64,000 bases of DNA from Pontibacter roseus DSM 17521 (lineage in GTDB: Bacteria; Bacteroidota; Bacteroidia; Cytophagales; Hymenobacteraceae). The notes beneath the pieces were generated by a model, which saw only the letters and a program-made list of their open reading frames with translations, was not told the DNA's origin and did no database searches. Made by a program: the position numbers and the translations under genes. The stretch covers positions 1-64,000 of the forward strand of contig NZ_KB890769.1 of NCBI RefSeq assembly GCF_000373265.1, written 5' to 3'. Shown here piece by piece: positions 750 through 64,000 of this stretch (within the stretch, counting starts at the first letter, position 1; the number at the start of each line of letters is the position of its first letter).

Positions 750-1200
750 CCGGGCGAACTCTCACCTTCCCCGAGGGGCGGTTCCCCTTAAGCCCCTCAG
801 CCGCTGCGGGATTCTTTCAAAAGAAAGTTTGGGGTTTCTATTAACCTACCCCTCCCCTACAGGAATTACTTACCTTTGCTCTTCAATCGAAATGCTTTTG
901 CAGCTCTTCACTGCATTTTTACTTGCGCTTACCTAATTTGTACAAGGAGACATTTATGATTATTGCCTGTGGATTTCCCCATACCCCATTAGCCTTTATA
1001 CTGCTACGCAAGAGATATAACTGCTTTAGCGCATTTAGAAGTTCCTGTTGATTAAATATTCTTCCAGATGTTTCTCCCATCTTGAGCAGGATGAAGGTCT
1101 AATTTAGAATTCTCTTTGATGATGCTATCTGATATTGTAATGGTATGATATTTCTCCTGCTATCGTCTCCCTTATGGTTTTCAGGTATAGCCTATATAAA
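750..1200. other. intergenic stretch with no convincing gene
   Basis: Between the promoter array and the DUF2480 terminator I see no conserved gene. A 31-codon frame at 956-1051 on the plus strand has a good AAGGAG upstream but no recognisable product. A lone TACCTTTG at 871-878 on the plus strand lacks a partner -33 element. Confidence 0.6.
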
Positions 1201-1236
1201 AGCAGAAGCCCCGCCTTATAGAACGGGGCTTCTGCT
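1201..1236 (-). terminator. terminator after the tsaB-DUF2480 operon
   Basis: A 13-bp perfect stem (1201-1213 with 1224-1236) and a 10-base loop lie 19 bases past the DUF2480 stop codon. On the minus strand a TTTATATA stretch follows. Confidence 0.8.
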
Positions 1237-1254
1237 TTTAGCTTTACTATTCGA

Positions 1255-1767
1255 TTAAATTGCTTTTGGTTTTTTATAGAGTGGTACGGTGCTGCAGGGC
1301 TCTCCATACATGAGGCTGCTGGTAACCGGTAATAGCTTACGCATGATTTCCACATAAGCGTAGGTCGGGACAGGTATGCTGCCGCAACCTTTCACTACTA
1401 CTTTGGCATCTCTATACTCCTCTGGGTCTATCTTGGAGATTGCCTCTTGCATGAGTGCCTGCTCCAATGCCTCCAGGTCCCCGAAAACATAGTAGTTGGC
1501 ATATGCCTGCAGCTTGGTTGCCAAAAGCATATAGGCCCAAGTCGGCACAATCGCATCAGCTGAGCAAAGTATAGCTATGTTTTTACCAGCGTATACAGAC
1601 CAGTCGTTGTCTTTTACAAAAGCCCTGAAGTCTTTTTCGCGCAGGATGAGCCCCATATAAAGGTTATCCTTTATATCATACACTACACGCTCGCCTGGGT
1701 GAAGCAGTTCTTCCAGGTTGAATGTTACCAGCGCGCTTTGTGCTACCTTATTTATTATCTCTGACAT
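1255..1767 (-). CDS. DUF2480 family protein
   Basis: A 170-residue soluble protein that I recognise as the Bacteroidota DUF2480 family, whose members have about this length and begin with the same pattern (EIINKVAQSALVTFNLEEL here). The function is unknown. It has no signal peptide and no membrane segment. A conserved-looking glycine/cysteine motif (VKGCGSIPVP) lies near residue 125, and an aromatic-rich stretch lies near 85-95. It begins 8 bases after tsaB on the same strand, so the two are almost certainly co-transcribed from the promoter at 2499-2529. The neighbour makes a tRNA modification, but nothing in this sequence ties it to that pathway. Confidence 0.85.
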   Translation of the reverse strand: MSEIINKVAQSALVTFNLEELLHPGERVVYDIKDNLYMGLILREKDFRAFVKDNDWSVYAGKNIAILCSADAIVPTWAYMLLATKLQAYANYYVFGDLEALEQALMQEAISKIDPEEYRDAKVVVKGCGSIPVPTYAYVEIMRKLLPVTSSLMYGEPCSTVPLYKKPKAI

Positions 1768-1775
1768 CGTGTTGA

Positions 1776-2474: not shown

Positions 2475-2498
2475 GCGTTATTCTATATAATGTATCTA

Positions 2499-2529
2499 CA
2501 AAAGTACTGCACGAAAGGCAAGAAACAAA
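2499..2529 (-). promoter_or_regulatory. promoter of tsaB
   Basis: On the minus strand TTTG (2529-2526) and TACTTTTG (2506-2499) are 19 bases apart, a full match to the Bacteroidota consensus. The -7 box ends 25 bases before the tsaB start codon. Confidence 0.75.
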
Positions 2530-5068: not shown

Positions 5069-6793
5069 ATGATTCGGCACCACATCAGCTTTTCCAACCC
5101 GCTCACGCACTTTCTGGACATTACTCTATCCATACCTGGCAAGACACAGCAGGAGCTATACCTGCAACTCCCGGCCTGGCGCCCCGGCCGCTACGAACTC
5201 CAGCACTTTGCCCAAAAGTTGCGCGGTGTTACGGCCAGCGCCAATGGCCACGCTATACCTGTCCGGAAGGTGACTAAGGACAAGTGGCTAGTGGAGGCAG
5301 GCGGAGCTGAGACAGTGGAAATCAGGTATAGCTTTTATGCCCGGCAGATGGACGGGGGCGGCTCCTGGCTGGACGAGGAGCAGCTATACCTGAACGGCAT
5401 CAACTGCCTGATGGCGGTGGAGGGACGCGAGCAGGAGCCCCAGCTACTCCAACTCCACTTGCCAGACGACTGGCAGATTGCCTGCGGACTGAAGGAGACG
5501 GAGCGCCATACCCTGCAGGCCACCAACTACGACCAACTGGTAGATAGCCCCCTCATCGCCAGCGCCACCTTGCAGCAGGAAACCTATACGGTAGCAGGTA
5601 TACCCTTCCATATCTGGATACAGGGCGACTGCCGCCCGGACTGGGAAAGGATTAAAAAGGATTTCGAGGCTTTCACCCAAGAGCAATTGGAGGTGTTCGG
5701 TGATTTCCCTGTAGCTGATTACCACTACCTGAACGAAATCCTGCCTTACCGCTTCTACCATGGCGTTGAGCATAGCAACTCTACCGTCATCACGCTGGGC
5801 CAGGGCGAACTGCTGATGACGCCGGCGCTGTACAAGGAGTTTCTGGGCGTAAGCTCACACGAGCTGTTCCATACCTGGAACGTGAAACAGATACGGCCGA
5901 AGGAAATGCTGCCCTACGACTTCACTGGTGAGAACTACTTCCGGACGGGCTATGTAGCCGAAGGCGTCACCACCTACTACGGCGACTACATGCTAGCCCG
6001 CTCCGGCGTGTTCTCGGCCACACAGTATTTCGAGGAACTGAATACCACCCTGCAACGCTACTTCGCTGATTATGGCCACCACCACCTCTCCGTAGCCGAC
6101 TCCTCTTTCGACCTGTGGCTGGATGGTTATAAACCCGGCATACCTGACCGAAAGGTGTCTATCTACATCCAAGGAGCTCTGACCGCCCTGCTGCTTGACC
6201 TGCAACTGCGGCAAGCCACTAGCAATGCAGCTAGCCTGGATACCGTGATGCGGCACCTGTGGGAAGAGTATGGGAAACGCGCCAATGGGTATAGCGAGGA
6301 AGATTATGAAAACTTGGTGCTGCGTATCGGTGGAGAGGATTTTCGGTCGTATTTCGAGCAATACATTTATGGGACTTCGCCTATAGAACAAGCCTTGGAT
6401 GAAGCGCTCCACTACATAGGCTGCACGCTGCAGGCAGAGGAGAACCCGCTGCTGTACGAGCGGCTGTTCGGCTTCAAGGTTGTTGCAGATAACCAACTCA
6501 CGAAGGTGTCGGCTATAGCACCTGACTCGCCTGCCAGTACTGTACTGAGCGTGGACGATGAATTGGTAGCCGTGAACGGACGAAAACTGGAGCAGAACCT
6601 GCAGCCGCTGCTAGCGGACCTATACCTGGGCCAAACTATGGAGCTGACTTTGTTCCGCAACAAGCAGCTGCGCCAAGTAAAACTGCAGCCTGGTCAGCAG
6701 ACTTTCTATACCAGGTATACCGTAGCCAAACGTGCGGACGCCACTACTGAAGAGAAGCAGAACTTCCAGCTTTGGCTGAAGCAGGAGTTTTAG
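5069..6793 (+). CDS. M61 family metallopeptidase (glycyl aminopeptidase-like) with PDZ domain
   Basis: A 574-residue zinc peptidase of family M61. The zinc site HELFH is at residues 264-268, inside SSHELFHTWNVKQIRP, and the third ligand is probably Glu298 in AEGVTTYYGDY. The N-terminal 160 residues form the beta-rich domain normal for the family, and a PDZ domain occupies about 470-550. No signal peptide is visible, so it may act in the cytoplasm, although many relatives are exported. The ATG at 5069 is chosen because the family starts with such a RHHISFSNPLTHF segment. It converges on the flavoprotein gene with only 4 bases between stop codons and no hairpin between them. Confidence 0.92.
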   Translation: MIRHHISFSNPLTHFLDITLSIPGKTQQELYLQLPAWRPGRYELQHFAQKLRGVTASANGHAIPVRKVTKDKWLVEAGGAETVEIRYSFYARQMDGGGSWLDEEQLYLNGINCLMAVEGREQEPQLLQLHLPDDWQIACGLKETERHTLQATNYDQLVDSPLIASATLQQETYTVAGIPFHIWIQGDCRPDWERIKKDFEAFTQEQLEVFGDFPVADYHYLNEILPYRFYHGVEHSNSTVITLGQGELLMTPALYKEFLGVSSHELFHTWNVKQIRPKEMLPYDFTGENYFRTGYVAEGVTTYYGDYMLARSGVFSATQYFEELNTTLQRYFADYGHHHLSVADSSFDLWLDGYKPGIPDRKVSIYIQGALTALLLDLQLRQATSNAASLDTVMRHLWEEYGKRANGYSEEDYENLVLRIGGEDFRSYFEQYIYGTSPIEQALDEALHYIGCTLQAEENPLLYERLFGFKVVADNQLTKVSAIAPDSPASTVLSVDDELVAVNGRKLEQNLQPLLADLYLGQTMELTLFRNKQLRQVKLQPGQQTFYTRYTVAKRADATTEEKQNFQLWLKQEF

Positions 6794-6797
6794 TAGG

Positions 6798-8033: not shown

Positions 8034-8122
8034 AGTGCTCTTCTAGTGAAGGGGGCTAAAAATAAGAAGCAATTTCCAGCCTGGCACCATGGCAGTCAAA
8101 AAAGCCAGCTATAAAACAAGAA

Positions 8123-8147
8123 GAGGAAGGCCTGTATGGCCTTCCTC
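8123..8147 (-). terminator. terminator after the small N/K-rich gene
   Basis: A 10-bp perfect stem (8123-8132 with 8138-8147) with loop TGTAT. On the minus strand it is followed by TCTTGTTTTA. Confidence 0.75.
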
Positions 8148-8187
8148 CCCTCTCAATTTTCATAGTCTTATTTTGGTCTCTCTAAAG

Positions 8188-10204: not shown

Positions 10205-11539
10205 TTAGCGGTCGAACAGCAGCCTCTCCCCTTTTTTGCTCTCATCAAACGCTCCGTCGGCAAAGGCCAGGTGGCCCGAGACGAAGGTATGGGTGATGGT
10301 GCTGCCAAAGGTATGGCCCTCGAACGGCGACCAGCTGCACTTATAATAGGTGTTGTCTTTCGTCACGGTGTAAGGTTTGTCCAGATTCACTAGCACCAGG
10401 TCAGCCCAGTAGCCTTCCCGGATGTAGCCGCGCTCGCGCACATTAAACAAAATCGCCGGCGCATGCGCCATCTTCTCCACCACCTTCTCGATTGTCAGCT
10501 TGCCTTGCTTCACGAACTCCAGCATCATCTGCAGCGAGTGCTGCACCAGCGGCACCCCACTTGGCGCCTGTTTGTATTTGCCCTGCTTCTCCTCCCACAG
10601 GTGCGGCGCGTGGTCTGTCGCGATGACATCCAGTTTATCTTCCAACAATCCCTGCAGCAAGCCTTCTTTGTGGCGATGCTCCTTCACGGCTGGGTTGCAC
10701 TTGATTTGCGTACCGAATGTATCGTAGTCTTCTTTGTCGAACCAGAGGTGGTGCACGCATACCTCGGCTGTGATGCGCTTCTGCTCCAGCGGGATGTCGT
10801 TGCGGAACAGCTTCAGTTCCTCCTCGGTAGAGATGTGCAGGATGTGCAGACGCGTGTTGTGCTTCTCGGCTAGCTTCACCGCCAGGAACGACGACTTGAA
10901 ACAGGCGGCTTCATTACGTATTTCGGGATGGCACTTCACCGGTATGTCATCACCATACTTCTCTTCGTAGATGGCCATGTTGTCGCGGATGGTCTGCTCG
11001 TCCTCGCAATGCACGGCGATGGGCAGTTTTGCCCTGGAGAAAATCTGCTCCAGCGTCTCCTCGTTATCCACGAGCATGTTGCCCGTGGAGGAGCCCATGA
11101 AAATCTTGATGCCGCAGACGGTGTTGGGGTTGGTGAGCAGCACCTCAGACAGGTTGTCGTTGGTGGCGCCCATATAAAAGGAGTAGTTGGCCAGCGAGGT
11201 TTCGGCAGCAAACTTATACTTCTCCTCCAGCAGCTCCTGCGTTACGGTGTTGGGAACGGTGTTGGGCATCTCCATGAACGAGGTGACGCCTCCCGCCACG
11301 GCCGCTCTGGCCTCTGTTTCGATGTTGGCCTTATGCGTCAGGCCCGGCTCCCGGAAGTGCACCTGGTCATCGATGGCGCCGGGCAGCAGGTATAGCCCAG
11401 TGGCGTCTATGGTCTCGTCGGCTTCGGTAGCTATACCTGGACCAATCTGGGTGATGCGCCCGTTTTGAATCAGCACATCGGCTGTGGTGGTTTTTCCTTC
11501 GTTTACGAGTTGGGCGTTCTGGATGAGGATGGATTTCAT
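10205..11539 (-). CDS. pyrC: dihydroorotase
   Basis: Catalyses the ring closure of carbamoyl aspartate to dihydroorotate in pyrimidine synthesis. The 444-residue protein has the class I amidohydrolase layout: DDQVHFREPG at 57-66, HCEDEQ for a metal ligand, HILHIST, and ATDHAPH with the catalytic aspartate. The first histidine of the usual HxH is glutamine here (Gln59, His61). As I recall, this is normal for Bacteroidota enzymes of this type and not damage. The frame is open further upstream, but homologues start at the ATG at 11539 (MKSILIQNA). It is followed at 10 bases by the DUF6980-like gene. Confidence 0.93.
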   Translation of the reverse strand: MKSILIQNAQLVNEGKTTTADVLIQNGRITQIGPGIATEADETIDATGLYLLPGAIDDQVHFREPGLTHKANIETEARAAVAGGVTSFMEMPNTVPNTVTQELLEEKYKFAAETSLANYSFYMGATNDNLSEVLLTNPNTVCGIKIFMGSSTGNMLVDNEETLEQIFSRAKLPIAVHCEDEQTIRDNMAIYEEKYGDDIPVKCHPEIRNEAACFKSSFLAVKLAEKHNTRLHILHISTEEELKLFRNDIPLEQKRITAEVCVHHLWFDKEDYDTFGTQIKCNPAVKEHRHKEGLLQGLLEDKLDVIATDHAPHLWEEKQGKYKQAPSGVPLVQHSLQMMLEFVKQGKLTIEKVVEKMAHAPAILFNVRERGYIREGYWADLVLVNLDKPYTVTKDNTYYKCSWSPFEGHTFGSTITHTFVSGHLAFADGAFDESKKGERLLFDR

Positions 11540-13075: not shown

Positions 13076-13134
13076 AGGTATAGCTGCAAGGTCAGGTATA
13101 GGTATAGTTGGCAAATCCAGGTATGTCTATACCT
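13076..13134. repeat. cluster of four AGGTATAG/CTATACCT words
   Basis: AGGTATAG occurs at 13076-13083, 13094-13101 and 13100-13107, and the inverse CTATACCT at 13127-13134, overlapping the stop codon of the next gene. The same octamer is scattered over the whole window; this is its densest cluster outside a terminator. Confidence 0.8.
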
Positions 13135-20219: not shown

Positions 20220-21758
20220 ATGCTCATCAAGTCGTTTGGCAGTGCCGTGCAGGGCGTAAATGCCTATACCGTGACCGTAGAAGTAAGTGTAAGTGCCGGT
20301 GCCAAGTATTTTCTGGTAGGCCTCCCCGATAACGCCATTAAAGAAGGAGAGCAGCGGATAGAGTCGGCCCTAGCGCAGTACGGGTATAAGCTGAAGCGCC
20401 AGAAGACCATCATCAACATGGCTCCTGCCGACATACGAAAAGAAGGCTCTGCCTACGACCTCACCATTGCTATGGGTATGCTGGCCGCCTCCGGTCAAAT
20501 GGCGCCAGACAAGTTGTCGCAGTACATGATTATGGGCGAACTCTCACTCGATGGTTCGCTCCGCCCCATCAAAGGCGTGCTGCCCATTGCCATACAAGCC
20601 CGCAAGGAGGGCTTCAAAGGGTTCATTCTTCCCGCCCGTAATGCCAATGAAGCCGCCATTGTCAACAACCTGGACATCATCGGGGTGGAGAACATCAAAG
20701 AGGCCATCGATTTCCTAAACGGACAAGCCGACATACCGCCACTCCGCATAGACACCCGCGACATTTTCCAGAGCAACGTAGACCAGTATGCCGCTGACTT
20801 TTCAGACGTGCAGGGGCAGGAGAACATCAAACGCGCCCTGGAAATCGCGGCGGCCGGTGGCCATAATGTGATTATGATAGGTCCTCCGGGTGCCGGCAAG
20901 ACCATGCTGGCCAAGCGACTGCCCTCTATCCTGCCGCCCCTCTCCATGCACGAAGCGCTGGAGACAACCAAAATCCATTCGGTGGCCGGCAAGTTGGGTG
21001 AGGTATCTTCGCTCCTCTCTACCAGGCCATACCGCTCGCCGCACCACACCATTTCCGATGTGGCCTTGGTGGGAGGCGGTGGCATCCCGCAGCCCGGTGA
21101 GATATCGCTGGCCCACAACGGCGTGCTGTTCCTGGACGAACTGCCTGAATTCAAGCGTACCGCCTTGGAAGTGATGCGCCAGCCCCTGGAGGAACGGCGG
21201 GTGACCATTTCGAGAGCCAAAACCACCTTGGAATTCCCGGCCAACTTTATGCTGATTGCCAGCATGAACCCCTGCCCCTGTGGCTATTATAATCATCCGG
21301 TTAAAGAGTGTGTGTGCGGACCCGGCATTGTGCAACGCTACCTCAACAAGGTGAGTGGCCCGTTGCTAGACCGTATTGACCTACATGTGGAGGTGACGCC
21401 CGTTACGTTTGACGAGATGACCGCCACCCGCAAGTCAGAGGACAGCGGCACTATCCGCAGTCGCGTAGTGACGGCACGTGAGCTGCAGCGGGAACGTTTC
21501 AAAGACTTCGACCAGATTCATTCCAATGCTATGATGCCTTCCCAAATGGTGAAGGAGGTATGCCAGGTATCCGACTCCGGCAGGGCTTTGCTCAAGACGG
21601 CGATGGAGCGCCTGGGGCTCTCTGCCCGCGCCTACGACCGCATTCTGAAAGTAAGCAGAACGATTGCTGATTTGGCTGGAAACGAAGAAATAAAAATTGA
21701 ACATTTAGCAGAAGCTATCCAGTACCGGAGCCTGGATAGAGAGGGGTGGGCGGGCTAA
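20220..21758 (+). CDS. YifB family Mg-chelatase-like AAA+ ATPase (ComM-like)
   Basis: A 512-residue AAA+ protein. The N-terminal domain (about 1-170) has the ribosomal S5/Lon-like fold with GLPDNAIKEGEQRIESAL. The ATPase domain has Walker A GPPGAGKT at about 221-228, and the diagnostic segment CPCGYYNHPVKECVC, followed by GPLLDRIDLHVEV, lies near residues 355-390. ComM of naturally competent bacteria is a hexameric helicase that extends branch migration during transformation. YifB relatives are widespread, so this does not prove competence here. Confidence 0.92.
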   Translation: MLIKSFGSAVQGVNAYTVTVEVSVSAGAKYFLVGLPDNAIKEGEQRIESALAQYGYKLKRQKTIINMAPADIRKEGSAYDLTIAMGMLAASGQMAPDKLSQYMIMGELSLDGSLRPIKGVLPIAIQARKEGFKGFILPARNANEAAIVNNLDIIGVENIKEAIDFLNGQADIPPLRIDTRDIFQSNVDQYAADFSDVQGQENIKRALEIAAAGGHNVIMIGPPGAGKTMLAKRLPSILPPLSMHEALETTKIHSVAGKLGEVSSLLSTRPYRSPHHTISDVALVGGGGIPQPGEISLAHNGVLFLDELPEFKRTALEVMRQPLEERRVTISRAKTTLEFPANFMLIASMNPCPCGYYNHPVKECVCGPGIVQRYLNKVSGPLLDRIDLHVEVTPVTFDEMTATRKSEDSGTIRSRVVTARELQRERFKDFDQIHSNAMMPSQMVKEVCQVSDSGRALLKTAMERLGLSARAYDRILKVSRTIADLAGNEEIKIEHLAEAIQYRSLDREGWAG

Positions 21759-25963: not shown

Positions 25964-26608
25964 CTATTTCCGAAGGCCTAGCTTGATGTTGGCTTTGCTT
26001 TCCTCGCCTTGCAGCAGGCGGTTGATGTTCTTGCGGTGCGTAAGCGCCACCACGGCGAACAGCACAAACCCAAACACTATCAAAATGGGATTGTCAGGAT
26101 GAAAGCGTGGCAGCAGCAGCAGGATAGGGAAAGCCAGCGCGGCAATCATGGAACCCAGCGACACATAGCGGGACGTGAAAAGCACAATCACAAAGATGAC
26201 CATACACATCAGCGCCACTTCCAGGTGAATGGCCAGCATCATACCCAGCAGCGTAGCCACGCCTTTGCCACCCTTGAAGCGCTCGTATACCGGGAAGATG
26301 TGTCCGAGCACGGCTAGCGCCCCCATTATGAGCTTATAGATAATCAAATCATCGGCTTCCACGGCGTTGAAGATAACCAGCAGACCGGCCAACGAAGTGG
26401 CTACCCAGCCTTTGAAGATATCAATCAGCATCACGATGGTACCTGGCTTTTTGCCGAGCACCCGGAAGGTGTTGGTGGCACCAGAGTTCCCGCTACCATG
26501 CTGGCGGATGTCCATCCCATAGTAAGCTTTGCCTATCCAAACAGCCGTCGAGATAGACCCAATCAGGTAAGCAGCAAGAAAAAGTATTGCAATCAAAAGC
26601 ACGTCCAT
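25964..26608 (-). CDS. plsY: glycerol-3-phosphate acyltransferase PlsY
   Basis: Transfers the acyl group of acyl-phosphate to glycerol 3-phosphate, the first step of membrane phospholipid synthesis. The 214-residue inner-membrane protein has about five membrane helices. The three conserved motifs are GSGNSGATNTFRVLGKKPG (near residue 38), FKGGKGVAT (near 112) and the loop before the last helices. The C-terminal tail is basic. It is a single gene with its own terminator. Confidence 0.94.
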   Translation of the reverse strand: MDVLLIAILFLAAYLIGSISTAVWIGKAYYGMDIRQHGSGNSGATNTFRVLGKKPGTIVMLIDIFKGWVATSLAGLLVIFNAVEADDLIIYKLIMGALAVLGHIFPVYERFKGGKGVATLLGMMLAIHLEVALMCMVIFVIVLFTSRYVSLGSMIAALAFPILLLLPRFHPDNPILIVFGFVLFAVVALTHRKNINRLLQGEESKANIKLGLRK

Positions 26609-26774
26609 GACCTGTGTGTCATTATATGAGTTTAGCCTGTAACCGCACTTAAAAGCTTTAAGTGCGGCCCAACAGCATGTTTTCTAACCGAATCGAACCC
26701 AAATATAGGAACTTGTCAATTCAATATCCAAGATTCGGGTGCAATTCCGTATACGGCTGCATCCTTAGTTGTGG

Positions 26775-29700
26775 TTATTGCCACCCCTCTTCTTCCTCTG
26801 CAGAACCCTTTTTCTTTTTCTTTTTCTTCTTAGAACCTTCGTCCTCTTCTTCCGCCACGTTAAAGCCTCCTTGGTCAGATATGGAAGGCTCGCTTGCCAT
26901 CTTGAATCCGTTCTGTCCTTTGAGATAATCTTGACGGAACTGGTCTACGAAGCGGTTTTTGTCAATAGTCTCACCCATGTACATAGCGTACTTAAGTGAG
27001 CCGCCACGTCCGCCGCTCGCCTTGGAACGAATGGCTTTGTTCACAGCCGGGTCAGAGGCAACCATCACCAGGCCATTTTCCATGTAGCCGATGTAGAACC
27101 AGGTCCAAGGATCTGTTTGCAGGTACAGGTTCACCACCGGTTCACCGTTCAAATCCTGGCGTATCTCCATGAATCCATCCATGTTGGCGTTCACGTCCTG
27201 GTCCATGACGTTGGCCAACCCAAGCTTGCCCACGCTATACCAGGCTTTGGTCTTGTTGGACCAGCGCAGGTCTACGTTATGGAACACCAGGCTGCGCTTG
27301 AGACTGCTCGACAGTTTTGGCAGCGGAACGTAGCCACCCTGGTCTCTGTACTTGCGTGCATCACGGTTTCCAATGAGTCCGGCTAATTTGTAAACCATCT
27401 CCTCGTCGCGGCTTATACCTGTGCCGTCTCTGCTCACCGTCTCAAAAATCTTTTTAGAGATGGCTGCAATTACCTGGTTGGGTACAGACAGGTCAAAGGC
27501 CATGAGAGCGTCGATGTCATACCGGCTGCTGTCGGAGTTAGCGCTTCCGCTGCCAGCCGCCTCAATGTTGAAGTGCTTGAGCGGGGCTACCAGGTTGAGC
27601 TTGCCGTTGAAGTGGATGGTCTTGGTCGTCTCGTTGTAGCGCAGTTCATTGCCTTCATAGGAGTCCGCTACGGCACGCGCCGCATTTATCAGCCTGAATT
27701 CACTCAGGCTCTTGTCATACGAGAGGTGCCCATCCACTGTGAAGATATCCAAATCGTCTTCGTATTGCTTCTTCGACACGAAGGTGTTGTACAACTTGGA
27801 ATCTCCTCTAGACAAATGGAGTCCGGTATGGAGTCGGGTGCCATCGGCTGCCTTTGGATTGATAATGGGTATGCGCACGTTATCTGGGTTCAGCGAGTCC
27901 TTCTTGAAGGGGAACCAGTCTGAGTCTGCCTCATTGCCGGTGAAGTTGAGTTTCAGGTCGCCATCAAAATCCATGTCCGGCCGGTAGGAGTACATCTTGA
28001 CGTTGCCCCGGTACCGGATGCGTGGGAAAATGTAGAAATTCTCTCCCTCATCCACCCGTGACAGCGCATAGGTCGTCAGGATTTCCTCTTTCTTGTTCAG
28101 CGGATGCTCGCCATATGTAAACTCTGCGAACTTCAGGTTGAAAGAGTCTGACGCGGCGTTGTGATAGTCGCGTGAGGCCACACCGGTGAAGGCGTTGCGG
28201 GAGAGCACATCAATGTTGCCGGCGAACAGCTTGTGGAAATGCTTTACGGAGTCAGCCATCACGCGGGCATTGCGCAGGGTCTTGATGGTGGCATCCGCCG
28301 AAACGGCCACTCTACCGCTGTCAGGTATAACGTGCACATCCCCTACCGGAATGTAAGGCACGCCGCCCGCCAAAATGGTATTCACCTTCAGGTCGTACTC
28401 CCCGCTCTCGGCGCTGAAACGCAAGCCCGCCTGCTGCGGGTGCTGGGAGTAGAAGTAGTTCTTCCCGCCTTTGTCGTCCGCTGTCAGGCTTACCTTCTGT
28501 TTCTTCATATCCCATTTGGCGCTGCTCATGGAGGTTTTGTACTGCGCCTTCGGGAACTCGATGCTGGCCGCTCCTACCTGTTCACTGCCAAACTCCACCA
28601 TGTCCTTGTTCATGTCGTAGTTGATGGCCACATCCTGTGCCAGCATAGCGGGCCTGCCTTGCACGTCGGACTTCACTATCATCTGAGCGTGGCTGCCTGA
28701 GAAGCTGCGGCCCTTGAACAGCAACATATCTGAAACCACATTGGCTACATCGTTGTCGAGTTCCCCGCTGCCGTAAAGGCCGCCCGGTGCCAGCTTGGCC
28801 GTGCCCACGAACTTGTACTGCTCTTTGTATACCAGCATCGGGTCTTTGTCAACGAGCACATGCATGGTATCCTGCTTGGCCATCCAGTTCATCTGGTATT
28901 TCCCCAGAACAGCCTCCGGATAGTCGGCGTTGCCCCCGCCAGGTTGAATCTTTGCGCTTGTGCCTTTCTCCGTCACCACCCTGTCCAGGTAGTAGGTATA
29001 CTCAGGCGCCTCAAACGTAGAGGTCAGATATTTCAATGTGCCCCGGCTTTGTATACCTGCCGAGCTCATCATGATAGTATCGTGGGCGACGCCCTTTCCA
29101 CCAAAGGCAGGCAGCCCGTTAGGCCCCGGCACATGATAGAAACCAAGGGTCTGGTCGGGCATCATGGTCAGTTTGGTCTTGATGGGCGGGAAAATGCCGC
29201 CGGAATGGAATGTCCCTGTAAAGCCCATGCTTCCTTTACCGGCACTCAAGCTGTCCAGCTTATAGGAAGGTATATCAAAGTATACAGTACTGTCGTAGGC
29301 GCCAGCCAACACATCCGGACGGCTGAAAGCTACCTGACCACCCATAGGAGAGTCAAACTTTGGATACTCCGGGTAATACTCCCGTCCAGATTTGTTGTTG
29401 GGTTTGTTGATATACAGCTTGCCCGACATCTTGCCGGAGCGGCTTGTCATGACTTGTTCCTTTGTCTTCTTTCCTTCAGAGAAACGCTTTCTTGGTACGA
29501 AGGCTACGGTGTCCAGCTTTTGCATGTCTATCATGAACTCCTCGTAGTTGAACTTGTGCTGCGTGCCTCGGAAGGTAAGGCGGCCAGCGTGTATCTTCCC
29601 GCCAAACTCCATGTTGCGGTTATCGAGCAGGTGCACCACGTTGCTGTCTGGCACCACATACACACTAGACGAGTCGTTGTTGAAGGCTATTTTGTCCACA

Positions 29701-31553
29701 CCGCGTACGGTGAGCTTGTTGTTGCTCAGGTTGAGAGTGGCGTTTCGACCAGATGGCACCACTGACTTGATAACGATGTGGTCGTAGTCGTTGGCTTTGC
29801 GCGAAGACCCCACATAGTGCCAGGCCTTTTGTTTAAGTGAGATAAAGTTTGTCTGCCCATCATACTCCAGGAAGCCTTCTCTTGAAAGGTTCTGCGCCGC
29901 CTCCATCACAGCTGATTCTTTCAACTTGGCCGACTTGGCCACATCCGCCGCATAAAACTGGCTGCTCTTCACTTTGATGGCATATGCCACCAGCGCCTGC
30001 AGCGGGTGAAAGCTCGCCACTCCGACCAATTGCTGGTAGCGGATATTAGAGTAATAATGCGCTGACTCCAGTTGCACAGGTATAAGCGTCTTCGTGTTCA
30101 GGATAGAGAAGTTCACGAAAGGCGACTCTAAGCTCCAGAGCAAGCGCTCGGCTGTAATCTCGAATTTGTGGTAGCTGTCATAGAAAGGAGCCTTGCCATA
30201 AGTGCCTTTGTCACGCATGAGTACCAACTCCTTCGAAGGCTTGGTGTAACGCAACTGCATGGCCGGATGCGTCAGGGAGTCTTTTTGCTGGTTCTGATAA
30301 ATAGCTATGGAGGCCCTATTAGCGGAGATGATGGAATCGTTGAGGCTGTAGTTGTGGGCCATGGACCGGAACTTGCGCTTGCCATCCACAGAGACAACCA
30401 GCTCGGAAACGCTTCCGTCCAGCGGCTTGCTGCCTACGTTGTCGCCTACCAGTGTAAAGCCGCCGGTATAGGCGATGTTACTGCCCAGGCTTTTCACCTT
30501 CGCATCGTTGGTGAAGGAGATGAATTTAGGGTAGGCCCTCTCGCCGTTCTTGCCTGGCTTGGTGCTCCTGAACTCAAAGGCACCATCGATAGGTGCGTCC
30601 AATACGGCCGCGTAGGTGATGGTGGCATCCGGCACCCGGAAGGCAGCCGTTGTTATATCAAAGTTGTACTTCCGAAAAACAGCGGAAACAGGTTGCCCGG
30701 CTGCCTGCCACTCAAATGTGCCTCCTTCGCCTACAAACAGGTTGTTGGCCAGCATCAGCTGGCCGCTGGTTTTGCCGATGGAGGTGGAATCGTAAGGCGT
30801 CACGAAAGTCAGGGCAACATTTTCCAGTTTCAGCTTAGGTCCTGACACCTTGGGCTGGGCAGGTATGAACATCTTCTTGTAGTCTTCCTTCCGCTTCTTC
30901 TCGGCTGCCTTGGCATCTACTTTCTTAGGTGTGCTCACCACTGCTCCCCAGCCATCGTCTTCCGCTGCAGCCTCTGTTGCGGCAGGTTCGTCATCCCAGG
31001 AGATGTTATCCCATTCGCCTCCACTGGGTTCCTTGGCGGCATCTTTGGAAGCCGCCTTGCCTTCATAGGCAAAGCCCACACTGCCCCCGGTGGTGCGCAG
31101 CGTGTAGTGCTTGTTCTGGTACAGTATGCCGGATGTGAGGTAGCGGCTGCTGGTGCCTAGGAAACGGTCCAGGTTGGCGCCTTCCTCCTGCTGTATTGCT
31201 TTGTCCAGTACCTCCAACATGTTGTCGAGTTGGGCGCCGCGCATGTTGTGCTTGTTCACCCCGCCCACCAACATCATGAAGAACTGCTCGAAATGGGGGT
31301 TGGAGCGCAGTTTTTTGCGGTACATGCGCTGCGAGATGTCCACGACCTGCTGCTTTTGCTTAGCCGATAGCTTGTCGCCGGACCAGATGCCTTCCAAGTC
31401 AGCCGACAGTTGCTCGGCGCTGGCCACCCTGCCTGCAACAAGCAGGGCCTTCGCGTCCTTCACGAACTCATTGGGGTCAGTAGAGAGTTTGGTCTGGGCC
31501 TGCGCCGTGAAAATTGCCAGAAAAAAGATTAAGGGTAGAAGTTTATGCTTCAT
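26775..31553 (-). CDS. very large secreted protein of unknown function
   Basis: A 1592-residue protein. Signal peptide (residues 1-20, ending TAQAQ); a helical N-terminal region (about 25-150); an acidic, alanine-rich linker with many Asp and Glu (about 170-215); then about 1300 residues of beta-rich sequence with repeating short strands and glycines, ending in a Lys-rich tail (eight lysines in a row) and an acidic tip. I do not recognise a domain. The repeating strand pattern, for example near residues 1080-1130, suggests a beta-helix or a beta-groove like lipid-transfer proteins, but that is inference. It starts 18 bases after prmA and is probably co-transcribed with it. Similar long proteins are, as far as I recall, conserved but uncharacterised in Bacteroidota. 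Confidence 0.8.
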   Translation of the reverse strand: MKHKLLPLIFFLAIFTAQAQTKLSTDPNEFVKDAKALLVAGRVASAEQLSADLEGIWSGDKLSAKQKQQVVDISQRMYRKKLRSNPHFEQFFMMLVGGVNKHNMRGAQLDNMLEVLDKAIQQEEGANLDRFLGTSSRYLTSGILYQNKHYTLRTTGGSVGFAYEGKAASKDAAKEPSGGEWDNISWDDEPAATEAAAEDDGWGAVVSTPKKVDAKAAEKKRKEDYKKMFIPAQPKVSGPKLKLENVALTFVTPYDSTSIGKTSGQLMLANNLFVGEGGTFEWQAAGQPVSAVFRKYNFDITTAAFRVPDATITYAAVLDAPIDGAFEFRSTKPGKNGERAYPKFISFTNDAKVKSLGSNIAYTGGFTLVGDNVGSKPLDGSVSELVVSVDGKRKFRSMAHNYSLNDSIISANRASIAIYQNQQKDSLTHPAMQLRYTKPSKELVLMRDKGTYGKAPFYDSYHKFEITAERLLWSLESPFVNFSILNTKTLIPVQLESAHYYSNIRYQQLVGVASFHPLQALVAYAIKVKSSQFYAADVAKSAKLKESAVMEAAQNLSREGFLEYDGQTNFISLKQKAWHYVGSSRKANDYDHIVIKSVVPSGRNATLNLSNNKLTVRGVDKIAFNNDSSSVYVVPDSNVVHLLDNRNMEFGGKIHAGRLTFRGTQHKFNYEEFMIDMQKLDTVAFVPRKRFSEGKKTKEQVMTSRSGKMSGKLYINKPNNKSGREYYPEYPKFDSPMGGQVAFSRPDVLAGAYDSTVYFDIPSYKLDSLSAGKGSMGFTGTFHSGGIFPPIKTKLTMMPDQTLGFYHVPGPNGLPAFGGKGVAHDTIMMSSAGIQSRGTLKYLTSTFEAPEYTYYLDRVVTEKGTSAKIQPGGGNADYPEAVLGKYQMNWMAKQDTMHVLVDKDPMLVYKEQYKFVGTAKLAPGGLYGSGELDNDVANVVSDMLLFKGRSFSGSHAQMIVKSDVQGRPAMLAQDVAINYDMNKDMVEFGSEQVGAASIEFPKAQYKTSMSSAKWDMKKQKVSLTADDKGGKNYFYSQHPQQAGLRFSAESGEYDLKVNTILAGGVPYIPVGDVHVIPDSGRVAVSADATIKTLRNARVMADSVKHFHKLFAGNIDVLSRNAFTGVASRDYHNAASDSFNLKFAEFTYGEHPLNKKEEILTTYALSRVDEGENFYIFPRIRYRGNVKMYSYRPDMDFDGDLKLNFTGNEADSDWFPFKKDSLNPDNVRIPIINPKAADGTRLHTGLHLSRGDSKLYNTFVSKKQYEDDLDIFTVDGHLSYDKSLSEFRLINAARAVADSYEGNELRYNETTKTIHFNGKLNLVAPLKHFNIEAAGSGSANSDSSRYDIDALMAFDLSVPNQVIAAISKKIFETVSRDGTGISRDEEMVYKLAGLIGNRDARKYRDQGGYVPLPKLSSSLKRSLVFHNVDLRWSNKTKAWYSVGKLGLANVMDQDVNANMDGFMEIRQDLNGEPVVNLYLQTDPWTWFYIGYMENGLVMVASDPAVNKAIRSKASGGRGGSLKYAMYMGETIDKNRFVDQFRQDYLKGQNGFKMASEPSISDQGGFNVAEEEDEGSKKKKKKKKGSAEEEEGWQ

Positions 31554-31571
31554 AGGTTGAAGTGAGGTTAA

Positions 31572-32402
31572 TTAGCTCTTTTTGAAAATGGCAGACACCC
31601 AGTTGTTCTTAACCCGGTGTGACACATAGGCCAGCCCTAAACCGGCTGCTCGCTCCTGCAGCACAGGAAGGTCTTCGGTATAGAAGCCGCTTAGCAGCAA
31701 AGTGCCGCCGCCTTGCAGCACCTCCACGTAGGCAGGCATGTCTTCCAATAGCACGTTCCGGTTGATGTTCGCCAAAATGATATCGTAGGGACTGTCTCCT
31801 GCAATGGTCTCGGCACCTCCCAGGCGCACGTCTATTTCCGGATATCCGTTCAGTTGGGCGTTCTCGCGGGCATTCTCCACGGTCCAGTCCTCAATCTCCA
31901 CGGCCACAATCTCCTTTGCGCCCAATTCTCCGGCCATGATGGCCAGTATACCTGTGCCGCAGCCCATGTCCAGCACGCGCTTGTCCTGGTGGTCCAGCGT
32001 GAGCTGGTTCTCAATCATGAGCGTGGTGGTTTCGTGGTGGCCCGTGCCGAACGACATCTTCGGGTTGATGACGATGTCATACCTGGCAGCAGCCGGTTTC
32101 TCGTGGAAAGAGGCCCGCACCGATACCTGTCCGGCGATGAACAGGGGCTCGAAATTCCGTTCCCACTCCTCGTTCCAGTTCTGCTGCGCAATCTTCTGGG
32201 CCTGGTATTCCACCTGCGCGAGGTCAGCATAGCGGGCCAGCATCTCGTCAAGCGCCTCCTGCTCGTATTTCGCCTCATCAATGTAAGCATTAAAACCTTC
32301 GGCTGTATCTTCAAAGGTGTCAAATCCGAGCTCCGCCATTTCGGCAATCAGGATGTCGGCAAAATCAGGGTTTACTTTAAGCGATATTTCTATGAAATCC
32401 AT
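31572..32402 (-). CDS. prmA: ribosomal protein L11 methyltransferase
   Basis: Methylates amino groups of ribosomal protein L11 with S-adenosylmethionine. The 276-residue protein has the N-terminal L11-recognition domain (about 1-100) and a Rossmann-fold methyltransferase domain with PKMSFGTGHHETT near residue 125 and DMGCGTGILAIMAGELGAKE near 147-166. The post-I loop is followed by DIILANINRNVL, with the NPF-like motif as LANI. The length is normal. It lies between the DUF6150 gene (9 bases upstream) and the 1592-residue protein gene (18 bases downstream). Confidence 0.93.
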   Translation of the reverse strand: MDFIEISLKVNPDFADILIAEMAELGFDTFEDTAEGFNAYIDEAKYEQEALDEMLARYADLAQVEYQAQKIAQQNWNEEWERNFEPLFIAGQVSVRASFHEKPAAARYDIVINPKMSFGTGHHETTTLMIENQLTLDHQDKRVLDMGCGTGILAIMAGELGAKEIVAVEIEDWTVENARENAQLNGYPEIDVRLGGAETIAGDSPYDIILANINRNVLLEDMPAYVEVLQGGGTLLLSGFYTEDLPVLQERAAGLGLAYVSHRVKNNWVSAIFKKS

Positions 32403-32411
32403 GAGAGTGGG

Positions 32412-32777
32412 TTAAGGACGGCAGGCGGCGTAAGAGCGCACAGAAGTAAAATGAACAGTGAAATCAGCGAAATTGCGGTTGTCGGTCACGTATAGGATGT
32501 GGTCTGCAAAGGCTTTCTTGTCGGTGATGTACCAGATGGCCGTTCCGTCGGCGAACAGTTTGTTGTTCTCGCGGTATACCACCATGGTGGCGAAGGCTTC
32601 GTCATCTCCCAGAAACACGGTGTGTGAGGCGGTGTTCCTGTACTTGGGGTCGCGCTCCAGGTATACCGAGCCGTAAATCCGGCAGATATCCTGGGACACA
32701 GCGGCTGGCTGGGCAGGCGGCGCTGGCACCGCTATAGTTGGCAAGAGGGCCAACCATAAGGTCAACAGTAGAATCAT
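32412..32777 (-). CDS. DUF6150 family secreted protein with short internal repeats
   Basis: A 121-residue protein with an N-terminal hydrophobic segment (residues 2-17) that can act as an export signal. The rest is built from about four units of 16-18 residues, each with a phenylalanine-alanine-aspartate (or close) step followed by a strand: DEAFATMVVY, KLFADGTAIWY, KAFADHILYV, RNFADFTVHF. This layout matches DUF6150 proteins, which have no known function. It is the first gene of a run with prmA and the 1592-residue protein. A TATATTTG -7-like element lies at 32793-32800 without a good -33 partner. Confidence 0.75.
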   Translation of the reverse strand: MILLLTLWLALLPTIAVPAPPAQPAAVSQDICRIYGSVYLERDPKYRNTASHTVFLGDDEAFATMVVYRENNKLFADGTAIWYITDKKAFADHILYVTDNRNFADFTVHFTSVRSYAACRP

Positions 32778-32814
32778 ACGCTATAATTTAGCCAAATATA
32801 ACTATATCTTCAAC

Positions 32815-32853
32815 AAAAAAGGCTGCTGACATCAGGTGTCAGCAGCCTTTTTT
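32815..32853 (-). terminator. terminator after tpiA (usable in both directions)
   Basis: An 11-bp perfect stem (32821-32831 with 32837-32847) flanked by A6 on the left and T6 on the right, so it can stop transcription from either side. tpiA ends 17 bases away on the minus strand. Confidence 0.85.
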
Positions 32854-32869
32854 ATCCGCTTATGCTTTG

Positions 32870-33631
32870 TTAGAAGGATTTGATAATGTCGGTGAAGTCC
32901 CGTGATTTGAGGGAGGCACCGCCAATCAGGCCGCCGTCCACGTCTTCCTGTGAGAACAACTCCCTGGCGTTGCCGGGGTTACAGCTGCCGCCGTACAGGA
33001 TGCTGGTGTTGAAAGCCGCCTCGGCATCGAACATGCGCGACAGTTGCTCGCGGATGTAGGCGTGCATTTCCTGCGCCTGCTGGCTGCTGGCCGTGCGGCC
33101 CGTTCCGATGGCCCAGATGGGCTCATAGGCCACCACCACCTGGTCAAACTCCTCGTTGCTGAGGTAGGAAAGGCTGTCGTGCAGCTGCTTGCCCACGTAG
33201 TCGAAGTGGCGGTCAGCGTCGCGCTCCTCCAGCGGCTCGCCGCAGCAGAAGATGGGCGTCATACCTTGTGCGATGGCTGCCTTGAGTTTCTTGTAGAGTG
33301 TCTGCGCGTCCTCGTGGTGGTACATGCGGCGCTCGCTGTGGCCGATGATGATGTACTCCACTCCCACGGACTTCAGCATGGCAGCCGACACCTCGCCGGT
33401 AAAGGCGCCGCTCTCATGCTCGCTCACGTTCTGGGCAGCCAGGAACATGCGGTCGTTGCCTTGTGTGAGTTTGCCAACGCTCTGCAGGTATGGAAACGGA
33501 GGGGCCACAATGACGGTCACGTCACCGTTCACTTCGTCCTTCACCATGTTATCGATTTCCGATACCAGCGAAAGCGCCTCCTCATAGGTTTTGTTCATTT
33601 TCCAGTTGCCAGCGACGATTCGTTTTCTCAT
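32870..33631 (-). CDS. tpiA: triosephosphate isomerase
   Basis: Interconverts dihydroxyacetone phosphate and glyceraldehyde 3-phosphate in glycolysis. The 253-residue TIM-barrel has NWKMNKT with the catalytic lysine (Lys12), IIGHSERR with the catalytic histidine near residue 100, AYEPIWAIGTGRTAS with the catalytic glutamate near 169, and the phosphate-binding YGGSCNPGNA and GGLIGGASL. All catalytic residues are present and the length is standard. Confidence 0.97.
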   Translation of the reverse strand: MRKRIVAGNWKMNKTYEEALSLVSEIDNMVKDEVNGDVTVIVAPPFPYLQSVGKLTQGNDRMFLAAQNVSEHESGAFTGEVSAAMLKSVGVEYIIIGHSERRMYHHEDAQTLYKKLKAAIAQGMTPIFCCGEPLEERDADRHFDYVGKQLHDSLSYLSNEEFDQVVVAYEPIWAIGTGRTASSQQAQEMHAYIREQLSRMFDAEAAFNTSILYGGSCNPGNARELFSQEDVDGGLIGGASLKSRDFTDIIKSF

Positions 33632-33740
33632 GTTTTATGTTTGTTGATGATGGTTATACTTGATTTGACAGTCTGTGCTGCTTTACGGCAAGTTAGCAAA
33701 TAATGGTATACCTCTCCCCTACCTGCCTAAAAACAGCGAC

Positions 33741-33796
33741 ACAGGTATAGCAAAAGCCGCAGACACTCATGCATCTGCGGCTTTTGCTATACCTGT
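33741..33796 (-). terminator. terminator of uvrA, with AGGTATAG words in its stem
   Basis: A 23-bp perfect stem (33741-33763 with 33774-33796) with a 10-base loop. Each arm carries one copy of the window-wide octamer (33743-33750 and 33787-33794), and a third copy at 33798-33805 touches the uvrA stop codon. Confidence 0.85.
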
Positions 33797-59117: not shown

Positions 59118-59119
59118 AA

Positions 59120-61809: not shown

Positions 61810-61848
61810 TCGATTTATGTTTTTAGATGTTTTAGATACTTTGGGATG

Positions 61849-63027
61849 TTACTTCAGCAGTTCATAGATACCGGCTACGCCTTGGCCGCCACCCACACAG
61901 GCCGTGACCATACCGTATTTCTTGCCAAGGCGGCGCAGCTCGTGGAACTGCTGCACGCTCAGTTTGGCGCCGGAGCAGCCGAGCGGGTGGCCCAGAGCGA
62001 TGGCACCGCCGCTGATGTTGAGCTTGTCCGGGTCAAAATCGAGGTGGCGCATCACGGCAATGGACTGGGCCGCGAAGGCCTCGTTCATCTCAATCAGGTC
62101 AATGTCGTTGAGCGTCAGACCCGCCATTTTCAAGGCTTTTGGCACCGCTGCGATAGGTCCCATACCCATGATGCGCGGATCTACGCCGCCGGTTCCGTAG
62201 CTTACCAAGCGGGCGATTGGCTCCAGGTTCAGCTCCTTCACCATGCGCTCGCTCATCACAATCACAAAGGCGGCTCCGTCTGAGGTCTGGGAGGAGTTAC
62301 CGGCCGTCACGGTTCCTCCGGCCGCAAACACCGGCTTCAGTCGGGCCAATGCTTCCATAGAGGTATCGGCGCGTGGGCCTTCGTCGGTGTCTACCACATA
62401 GGTGCGGGTCTTTTTCTTGCCGTTCTCGTCGATGAAGGTCTCCTCCACCGTGATGGGCACGATTTGCTCTTTGAAGTAACCGTTCTTGATGGCGTTGATG
62501 GCCTTTTGATGTGAGTTATAAGCGAACTCGTCCTGGTCTTCACGTGAAACATTGTAATCCTTGGCTACGGCCTCCGCCGTTAGGCCCATGCTCAGGTACC
62601 AATCTGGGTTTTTCTTCGCGATGTTGTAATTCGGGACCGTCTTCCAGCCCACCGTCGGCACCAGCGACATGGACTCGGTACCGCCCGCTACGATGCAGTC
62701 GGCCATACCTGCCGCTATCCGGTTGCAGGCAATGGCGATGGTTTCCACGCCGGAGCCGCAGTAGCGGTTCACGGTCATACCGGACACAGACATGGGCAGC
62801 GACAGCAGGGCAATCATACGGCCTATCTGCAAGCCCTGCTCCGCCTCCGGCACGGCGTTGCCTACAATGAGGTCATCCACGCGCTCCGGGTCAAGGGCAG
62901 GCACAGAGGCCAGCAGGTGCTTGATGACATCGGCGGCCAGGTCATCAGGTCTGGTGAACCGGAAGCCGCCACGGTTGGCCTTGCCTACTGCGCTACGAAA
63001 TCCGGCTACTATATATGCATTGTTCAT
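61849..63027 (-). CDS. acetyl-CoA C-acyltransferase (thiolase)
   Basis: Cleaves 3-ketoacyl-CoA to acetyl-CoA and a shortened acyl-CoA. The 392-residue protein has the active cysteine Cys90 in MTVNRYCGSGVETIA, IEMNEAFAAQ near 332 with the catalytic histidine position family-typical, GGAIALGHPLGCSGAK near 357 with the catalytic histidine, and CVGGGQGVAGI at the end. All catalytic groups appear present. It lies 30 bases after the FadB-type gene and 39 bases before the dehydrogenase gene. Confidence 0.95.
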   Translation of the reverse strand: MNNAYIVAGFRSAVGKANRGGFRFTRPDDLAADVIKHLLASVPALDPERVDDLIVGNAVPEAEQGLQIGRMIALLSLPMSVSGMTVNRYCGSGVETIAIACNRIAAGMADCIVAGGTESMSLVPTVGWKTVPNYNIAKKNPDWYLSMGLTAEAVAKDYNVSREDQDEFAYNSHQKAINAIKNGYFKEQIVPITVEETFIDENGKKKTRTYVVDTDEGPRADTSMEALARLKPVFAAGGTVTAGNSSQTSDGAAFVIVMSERMVKELNLEPIARLVSYGTGGVDPRIMGMGPIAAVPKALKMAGLTLNDIDLIEMNEAFAAQSIAVMRHLDFDPDKLNISGGAIALGHPLGCSGAKLSVQQFHELRRLGKKYGMVTACVGGGQGVAGIYELLK

Positions 63028-63057
63028 GTTGATGCTCTTTTATAGTTTGTACTAAAC

Positions 63058-64000
63058 TTAGTTTCTCAGCGGCTTACCCGTAGTCAGGATGCTCTGGATA
63101 CGCTCCAGGGTCTTGCGTTCGCCTGTCAGGGACAGGAAGGCTTCGCGCTCGAGGTCCAACAGGTACTGCTCGCTCACATCGGTAGGGACAGACAAATCGC
63201 CGCCACACATCACGTAGGCCAACTTCTCCGATATCTTGCGGTCGTGCTCCGAGATGTAGCCGCCTGTCACCATGGCGCTGGCTCCTGTCAGGAACATACC
63301 CAACGCACCTTTGCCTTGTACTTTGATGTTGGTCTTCCTGGCCGGCTGCGTATACCCTGCCTCGGCCAGACGTATGGCCTGCGCCTTGGCATCGGCAATG
63401 AGCCGGTTGCTGTTGAGCGTGATGCCGTCGCTGGAACGTATGTAGCCTAAGTCTATGGCCTCTTTGGCGGAGGTGGATACCTTGGCCATACCTATGTTGA
63501 GGTAGATGTTCTTGAGCGTATTGAGCTCAATGTCCCCTTCTTCGTACATCGCGGCAGCGCGCAGCGTCATCTCCTTGGTGCCGCCGCCGCCAGGTATAAG
63601 GCCTACGCCAAACTCTACCAAACCCATGTAGGTCTCAGCGGACGCCTGTACATGGTCGCAGTGCAGGTTGAGTTCGCAGCCACCGCCCAGCGTCAGGCCG
63701 TACGGAGCGCCCACCACAGGTATAGCCGAGTAGCGCATGCGCATCATGGTGTCTTGGAACTGCTTGATCATGAAGTTGATTTCATCGTACTCCTGCTCTA
63801 TGGCATACATGTAGATGAGCCCCACGTTGGCACCGGCAGAGAAATTAGCCCCCTGGCTACCGACCACCATACCTCTGAATTCTTTCTCGGCTATCTCAAT
63901 GCCTTTGTTCAGACCTAGGGCCACATCGCCCCCGATGGTGTTCATCTTGGTGTGGAACTCCACGTTCAGGATGCCGTCGCCTAAGTCGATGAGGCTGACA
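63058..64000 (-). CDS. 3-hydroxyacyl-CoA dehydrogenase / enoyl-CoA hydratase, 3' part only
   Basis: The C-terminal 313 residues of a FadB/FadJ-like enzyme, cut by the right edge of the window; the frame stays open to position 64000 with VSLIDLGDGILNVEFHTKMNT, so the methionine-like GTG at 63963 is not the start. This part holds the enoyl-CoA hydratase (crotonase) domain: GANFSAGANVGLIY near the start, PVVGAPYGLTLGGGCELNLHCD and FGVGLIPGGGGTKEMTLRA for the oxyanion hole and catalytic region. The order (dehydrogenase domain first, hydratase domain last) is that of long Bacteroidota versions of about 800 residues. First gene seen of the beta-oxidation operon. Confidence 0.93.
   Translation of the reverse strand, partial: VSLIDLGDGILNVEFHTKMNTIGGDVALGLNKGIEIAEKEFRGMVVGSQGANFSAGANVGLIYMYAIEQEYDEINFMIKQFQDTMMRMRYSAIPVVGAPYGLTLGGGCELNLHCDHVQASAETYMGLVEFGVGLIPGGGGTKEMTLRAAAMYEEGDIELNTLKNIYLNIGMAKVSTSAKEAIDLGYIRSSDGITLNSNRLIADAKAQAIRLAEAGYTQPARKTNIKVQGKGALGMFLTGASAMVTGGYISEHDRKISEKLAYVMCGGDLSVPTDVSEQYLLDLEREAFLSLTGERKTLERIQSILTTGKPLRN

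Follow-up and report, generated by a model that had tools for sequence, protein, structure and literature searches.

A dense iterated octamer with lineage dialects in Pontibacter, a candidate DNA uptake signal

The iterated word in the window and in the genome

The stretch analysed here (the window) comprises 64,000 nucleotides of the Pontibacter roseus genome (G000; whole assembly of 4.58 Mb in 12 contigs). Besides the comM/YifB gene and the other features collected in Table 1, the window holds one octamer, AGGTATAG (complement CTATACCT), in far more copies than expected. It is the top-ranked octamer of the window, with 26 forward and 38 reverse copies when base composition predicts 1.8, and CAGGTATAGC occurs 24 times. 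An earlier reading of the stretch from its letters alone (the sequence-only reading) had estimated about 60 copies in both orientations, with 33 lying in the first 20 kb, against about 2 expected. Exact counting confirms this estimate, the total being 64 and the first 20 kb containing exactly 33.

Table 1. The iterated word and other features of the window (A, B and C denote the dialects defined in the text; ORF, open reading frame)
Feature	Position	Strand	Remarks
Iterated word AGGTATAG	1183..63725	both	64 copies, by word count
AGGTATAG, first bases	1183 2087 5324 9816 10066 11388 12623 13076 13094 13100 16279 16400 17164 19418 23451 33743 39556 43912 45021 45560 45775 45852 47872 58100 60472 63718	+	
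AGGTATAG, first bases	2544 4068 5156 5253 5384 6620 7634 8528 10198 11431 12108 13127 13740 14634 15085 15823 16219 16287 19067 20106 22713 22779 24498 24551 25958 33787 33798 35706 37787 38100 40673 40682 45301 55487 57618 57652 58920 61452	-	
Conserved-site example	11431..11438	-	AGGTATAG in 6/6 aligned A; AAGTATAA in 4/6 aligned B (1/7 unaligned); AACTATAA or AACTATAG in 4/4 C
Four-word cluster	13076..13134	three +, one -	two + words overlap, 6 bases apart; directly 3' of DEAD-box helicase gene
comM/YifB	20220..21758	+	Mg-chelatase-like AAA+ protein; intact in G000
Word-free 7.8 kb	25966..33742		includes prmA and 1592-aa ORF; uneven word density
1592-aa ORF	26775-31553	-	no Pfam match at E <= 1e-5; contains no word

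The excess is genome-wide. G000 contains 4500 copies of AGGTATAG (2304 + 2196; 0.98 per kb), compared with 108 (57 + 51) of the control, which is the word read backwards and counted in the same genomes. On 419 kb of G000, the word exceeds Markov models of orders 1, 2, 3 and 4 by 50-, 23-, 10- and 4.5-fold, the high-order models absorbing the word itself. The claim of the sequence-only reading that the word is not dictated by protein needs also holds. In the 338 coding sequences (CDS) predicted on these 419 kb (gene calls throughout are longest-ORF calls, without curated annotation), there are 258 copies, while 60 synonymous codon shuffles give 13.3 +/- 3.2 (maximum 23), a 19-fold excess. The same shuffles give 15- and 17-fold in samples of genomes using the B and C words introduced below. 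Composition, low-order Markov structure and codon usage are rejected as explanations by these counts. More broadly, codon pairs, composition or repeats might produce the word incidentally, and the rare codons ATA and CTA found in many copies would suit this. However, the synonymous shuffles (which do not preserve codon pairs), the Markov models and the backwards control are all contrary to it, as are the swaps between dialects at the same sites described below, and we regard this explanation as virtually untenable.

The motif of G000 can be written approximately as (C/A)AGGTAT(A/G)(G/C)C. Positions 1, 7 and 8 of AGGTATAG tolerate change, and copies with one mismatch at positions 2-6 are near chance (192 vs 180.8). 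Core one-mismatch copies are about two to three times chance in samples of the other two dialects (157 vs 55 in the B genome G012; 212 vs 106 in the C genome G030). Direct word pairs within 45 bases are in excess, with 23 among 383 AGGTATAG sites. Elsewhere in the window, the gliding genes gldB and gldD are present, away from the 1592-aa ORF.

Dialects in the genus and beyond

Our genus sample consists of 50 genomes, the genus being termed Pontibacter-like. Many of these relatives have low counts of AGGTATAG because they use other words, which were found by reading 20-kb stretches of 32 relatives. We name the three words dialects A (AGGTATAG), B (AAGTATAA) and C (AACTATAG). Twelve genomes use A, 22 use mainly B, five use mainly C and 11 are poor in all three (G002, G006, G023, G024, G025, G027, G033, G036, G210, G214 and G215). 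The A word is present in 2823-5222 copies in the 12 A genomes and in at most 833 in the other 38. Where dominant, the B word reaches 2246-7030 copies per genome, about 13- to 88-fold over its control, and the C word 6288-8208. Three genomes (G032, G026 and G211) contain two dialect words each in thousands. All three words share TAT(A/G) in their 3' half, while their 5' halves differ (AGG, AAG, AAC). The C word is also frequent as a 10-base palindrome, AACTATAGTT, with 44 overlapping +/- pairs in 180 kb of G030.

The dialects follow the phylogeny in part. In a comM gene tree of 49 genus genomes (G008 left out), locus L003 and two outgroups, which represents one gene and has several weak nodes, 11 of the 12 A users are represented and group as a single clade (support 1.00), and a second clade (support 1.00) unites the C users with G032 and G026. 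The B users are scattered over the remainder, and the poor genomes are partly basal (G025, G027 and G214) and partly scattered. Among named matches, the comM of the window is closest to that of L003, from an uncultured Pontibacter (86%). L003 equals G026, from which it is separated by zero comM distance.

Two of the poor genomes may have further dialects. In G036, GGTATAAA occurs 31 times in 80 kb when 1.6 are expected, and GGTATGG is seen also, at lower density than the main words. In G215, words of the TATATAAA and ATATATGG type occur 52 and 41 times in 100 kb (2.0 and 2.5 expected), and TATATATA is the leading 8-mer, runs of N aside. Since TA runs contribute to these TATA-centred words, they are hints only.

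Outside the genus, no comparable excess was found in 154 genomes of the other five genera of the family, where AGGTATAG has at most 212 copies and AAGTATAA at most 662 (control 364); the ratio of AAGTATAA to its control peaks at about 2.4-fold, in genus g23. In 22 genomes from other families of the order, AGGTATAG is near the count of its control, and among 80 Bacteroidota loci of 3.5-21.6 kb the dialect words rank in the five top 8-mers only in L003. We found no published description of such a word in this group in the open-licence literature, part of which was judged by title.

Words at orthologous sites are kept or swapped

Orthologous sites were aligned in the comM region, using the window and 20 syntenic regions, that is, 21 genomes (seven A, seven B, four C and three poor, one of the latter spanning only 9.7 kb). 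Genome pairs in these counts are not independent, and many sites lie in unalignable gaps (e.g., 908 unaligned A-to-B cases). Conservation at such sites, a check put forward with the sequence-only reading, is clear within dialects (60-64% against a background of 20-25%). In pairs of the same dialect, the word is retained at 64% of 938 sites for A, 60% of 693 for B and 60% of 255 for C, with 8-mer identities of 22%, 21% and 25%, respectively, as background.

Between dialects, one word is often found in place of the other. At 546 A sites aligned in B genomes, the B word is present at 11.7% and the A word at 2.6%, with a background identity of 13.6%. Conversely, at 583 B sites in A genomes, the A word is found at 11.0% and the B word is kept at 8.6%, again with a background of 13.6%. 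Between A and B, the old word is retained less than an ordinary 8-mer. Outside B genomes, the B word occurs at A sites in none of 938 A-to-A comparisons, in two of 130 in poor genomes and in 2.2% of 278 in C genomes. At A sites in C genomes, the C word is seen at 6.5% and the A word at 8.6%, and 6.2% of 290 C sites carry the A word in A genomes. The B word is kept at 28% of B sites in C genomes and at 14% of 148 in poor genomes (background 9%). For 30 sites of the window, a swap in at least one genome is seen to B at seven and to C at five. Words are kept within a dialect and partly replaced in place between dialects.

Placement relative to genes

In all three dialects the words are denser between genes than within them by 3.3-5 times (2.34 vs 0.71 per kb for A, 4.56 vs 0.92 for B, 4.01 vs 1.09 for C). 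Intergenic density varies with gap type in all three dialects: divergent gaps, which are of promoter type, have the fewest words per kb (1.47 in A, 2.95 in B, 2.77 in C), and tandem and convergent gaps have more. A promoter element would not be expected to show this pattern, which fits a build-up of words where the sequence is free to vary. The median distance to the upstream stop is shorter than that to the downstream start (34 vs 93 bases for A, 83.5 vs 113 for B, 121.5 vs 144.5 for C).

These data bear on the possibility that the words are binding sites for a nucleoid or regulatory protein whose specificity changes quickly. The intergenic enrichment, the common TATA-type core and the conserved positions are what such sites would show. 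Their scarcity in divergent promoter gaps, their position nearer the upstream stop and the 15-19-fold CDS excess over synonymous shuffles are not, which makes this explanation quite improbable in our view.

Mobile DNA and islands in comM

In four B genomes (G001, G011, G019 and G031), insertions of about 6-17 kb interrupt comM, entering near residues 214-225 or 349-358. The gene is an insertion hotspot in the genus. Two of these islands were scanned; each has a phage-type integrase, and one has a Type ISP restriction-modification gene. They resemble the comM insertions known in Acinetobacter, where inactivation of comM goes with lost or lower transformation (PMC11472951, partial text).

Over 55.1 kb, the islands of the four genomes contain 13 B words (5.6 expected given their AT-rich composition; 2.3-fold), compared with 26 in the 34.9 kb of their flanks (0.7 expected). 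The same islands hold seven A words (2.1 expected) and the flanks have none, which may reflect earlier hosts that used the A dialect. Within G000, positions 1-20000 of contig C10, which encode a relaxase, TraG, TraM and a coupling protein, have no word, and a 20-kb stretch with MmeI-type, primase-type and integrase genes has two. The conjugative genes of C10 adjoin a P-type ATPase and an HlyD-type protein. Contig C12 has one word in 14.9 kb and encodes Ig-like-domain proteins; none of its four scanned proteins clearly belongs to a mobile element. Mobile DNA is word-poor in this small sample, which covers the islands of four genomes and two stretches of G000.

Competence genes and word density

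In other bacteria comM is a transformation gene. It is broken in six of the 50 genomes, split by the above islands in four, broken in G008 and interrupted by a stop in G021. All 50 genomes have matches to comEC and dprA, and also to a helix-hairpin-helix (HhH) protein (about 315 aa), whose orthology is inferred from domain and length only. Stops in comEC and dprA were seen solely in G008 and G021, two of the genomes in which comM is broken. G021 is in addition the only one of the 50 with a fragmentary HhH protein; with all four genes broken, much of the pathway is lost in this genome. Pure sequencing error is a less likely cause of these stops, as other profile matches in the two genomes are stop-free and gene lengths are ordinary (in one stretch of G008), although this judgement is weakest for G008, an assembly of about 100 contigs.

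Among the B genomes, those with a broken comM rank at or near the bottom in word density. These five have 449, 461, 693, 710 and 824 words per Mb, compared with 818-1472 in the other 17 B genomes (Mann-Whitney one-sided p = 7.6e-5, a test in which genome sizes are rounded, kinship is ignored and the comparison was conceived after the counts were known). In sister pairs on the comM tree, the genome with the broken gene has 461 words per Mb vs 1009 (G021, G216), 449 vs 834 (G019, G035) and, with a small gap, 824 vs 859 (G031, G018). We also related mutated to perfect copies. For each excess perfect copy, G021 (one contig) has 0.83 excess copies with one core mismatch, while intact B genomes have 0.39 (G012) and 0.29 (15 other stretches), nine single stretches ranging from 0.04 to 0.52. 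Three poor genomes have a modest excess of mismatched copies and few perfect ones (119 vs 90 in G002, 117 vs 93 in G033, 71 vs 53 in G024), as if their words had decayed further. The basal poor genome G025 has neither a mismatch excess (26 vs 26) nor these few perfect copies. Loss of the HhH protein was rejected as a cause of word poverty, given its matches in 50/50 genomes and its fragmentation in G021 only.

The main rival explanation is a word of the HIP1 type, made and kept by a DNA methyltransferase and biased methyl-directed repair, with one methyltransferase per dialect. It is the main one because HIP1 and the alternate HIPs of cyanobacteria also switch between lineages, together with cognate methyltransferases (PMC4390886, partial text), and the frequent palindrome AACTATAGTT of dialect C, with its 44 overlapping pairs, would be in keeping with it. 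The A and B words are not palindromes, however, promoter-type gaps are avoided and density follows the state of comM. On this indirect evidence we consider the HIP1-type explanation unlikely, if less so than the other rivals.

Discussion

The excess, the dialects, the swaps in place, the scarcity in mobile DNA and the lower density with a broken comM lead us to propose that AGGTATAG is probably the local member of a family of DNA-uptake-type signals, which natural transformation would maintain by a pilus-free route. A candidate cell-surface receptor would bind double-stranded DNA bearing the word. This DNA would enter by a pilus-free route of Bacteroidota (HhH protein, ComEC, DprA, RecA and ComM) and recombine. 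Because word-bearing DNA would be preferentially taken up, words would pile up and be restored after mutation by molecular drive, mostly where sequence selection is weak. If the preference of the receptor changed, old sites would be rewritten in place to the new dialect, and if transformation were lost, words would decay. With slightly less assurance, we lean towards a wider statement, namely, that sequence-specific uptake may exist in Bacteroidota without a type IV pilus, using a novel type of surface receptor that reads a TATA-centred word and has changed specificity several times in the genus, many sites being rewritten each time.

Several observations weigh against this proposal. We found no uptake experiment for this genus in the literature. 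The 11 word-poor genomes all have stop-free comEC, dprA and comM matches, so that loss of these genes, which we had considered as the cause, is not why the words are lacking; our guess is that the receptor was lost or changed there. G008 has 1096 words per Mb despite its broken comM, comEC and dprA. In the four split-comM genomes, an apparently clear decay (a mismatch ratio of 1.04) turned out to be inflated by their AT-rich islands, without which the pooled ratio is 0.50; single 20-kb stretches scatter from 0.17 to 1.11, so decay there is not clear. Swaps between B and C are rare (2.3-2.5%). A search for the type IV pilus motor (PF00437; pilins were not searched for) gave partial matches of 18.8-25.9 bits in 50/50 genomes, over the cut-off in three, which we read as unrelated P-loop proteins. 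As for the receptor, DUF5689, the family of a candidate surface protein in Riemerella, was rejected since it is patchy (22/50) and missing from G000. The neighbourhood of comEC was also rejected as its home, as only a short stretch is conserved in the three genomes compared, its genes being mostly of housekeeping type apart from one 414-aa ORF that has no Pfam match. Finally, inverted pairs forming terminators, common for the DNA uptake sequences (DUS) of Neisseriaceae, show no clear excess in dialects A and B. The remark of the sequence-only reading that copies lie in terminators was thus not borne out as a trend, inverted pairs within 45 bases numbering seven '+-' and three '-+' among 383 sites, no clear excess.

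The A and B words also show a local strand bias over some 20-kb stretches (e.g., 2:23 and 31:5), which the uptake proposal leaves unexplained. At comM, the bias has the same direction in A and B genomes. It raises the possibility of Chi- or KOPS-like orientation signals acting in recombination or chromosome segregation, and the high copy number and the scarcity in mobile DNA would agree with these. Yet the C genome G030, a single contig, has no strand bias across nine 20-kb stretches (p = 0.58), perhaps because some C sites are the palindrome AACTATAGTT, and a single contig of G012 has stretches with opposite bias. GC skew was rejected as its cause, being not significant in A, B or C. Gene direction tracks the bias in A (rho -0.62, p = 0.002) and is not significant in B or C. 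Fast change of dialect within a genus and a link to comM are not expected of orientation signals either, and we judge them very improbable.

The uptake proposal thus stands with partial and indirect support, as does the DNA-uptake idea voiced in the sequence-only reading. It is favoured by the dialects, the in-place swaps, the paucity of words in mobile DNA and their reduced density where comM is broken; G008 and the 11 poor genomes do not fit. If it is true, uptake signals would have arisen independently once more, in a phylum whose uptake route is different and poorly known. The missing outer-membrane DNA receptor of this phylum could then be sought as the gene whose variation tracks dialect. 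With three main dialects and several apparent losses, the genus can be used to test how words spread, switch and decay.

Comparison with known systems

To our knowledge, uptake signals of proven function come mainly from Neisseriaceae and Pasteurellaceae. Uptake in both families employs type IV pili. The same two families are named for uptake signals in PMC1939737 (partial text). The DUS of Neisseriaceae comprise eight dialects, all with a CTG core, and the Pontibacter words resemble them in having thousands of copies per genome, dialects along the phylogeny, a common core with a variable remainder, and permissive intergenic sites (PMC3630211, partial text). In Neisseriaceae, however, uptake and the ComP pilin receptor are established, while here, in Bacteroidota, the word is known from sequence, no type IV pilus motor was found by the PF00437 search, and the A and B words form no clear excess of inverted-pair terminators. 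The uptake signal sequences of Pasteurellaceae have two lineage dialects, AAGTGCGGT and ACAAGCGGT, which, like the words described here, differ at neighbouring positions and share the remainder (PMC1626085). Uptake bias has been measured there, whereas the three main and two hinted dialects of this one genus were recognised by their letters. The HIP1 and alternate HIP words of cyanobacteria are likewise short, very dense and replaced by others in some lineages (PMC4390886, partial text), but they are palindromes tied to methyltransferases, unlike the A and B words.

For the machinery, the closest comparison is Riemerella anatipestifer, which is without pilus homologues and in which ComEC, DprA, ComF, RecA and an HhH protein are among eight genes essential for transformation, YifB/ComM mutants transforming less (PMC8459023, partial text). 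The same gene families (comEC, dprA, HhH and comM) are present in this genus. The available part of that source names no uptake word, and the DUF5689 surface protein family of Riemerella is patchy here.

Among the traits of uptake signals, we found a genome-wide excess on both strands, an excess independent of coding, intergenic enrichment, retention at orthologous sites, dialects sharing a core and depletion in mobile DNA. The type IV pilus machine is missing from this set as far as the PF00437 search shows, and it belongs to the machinery of known systems and not to the signal itself. As for the response to loss of competence, B words are fewer with a broken comM and mutated copies are more frequent in G021, the split-comM genomes being unclear and G008 and the 11 poor genomes misfits. 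Together, these likenesses suggest with fair likelihood that the word works like an uptake signal, its membership in that class being judged by resemblance.

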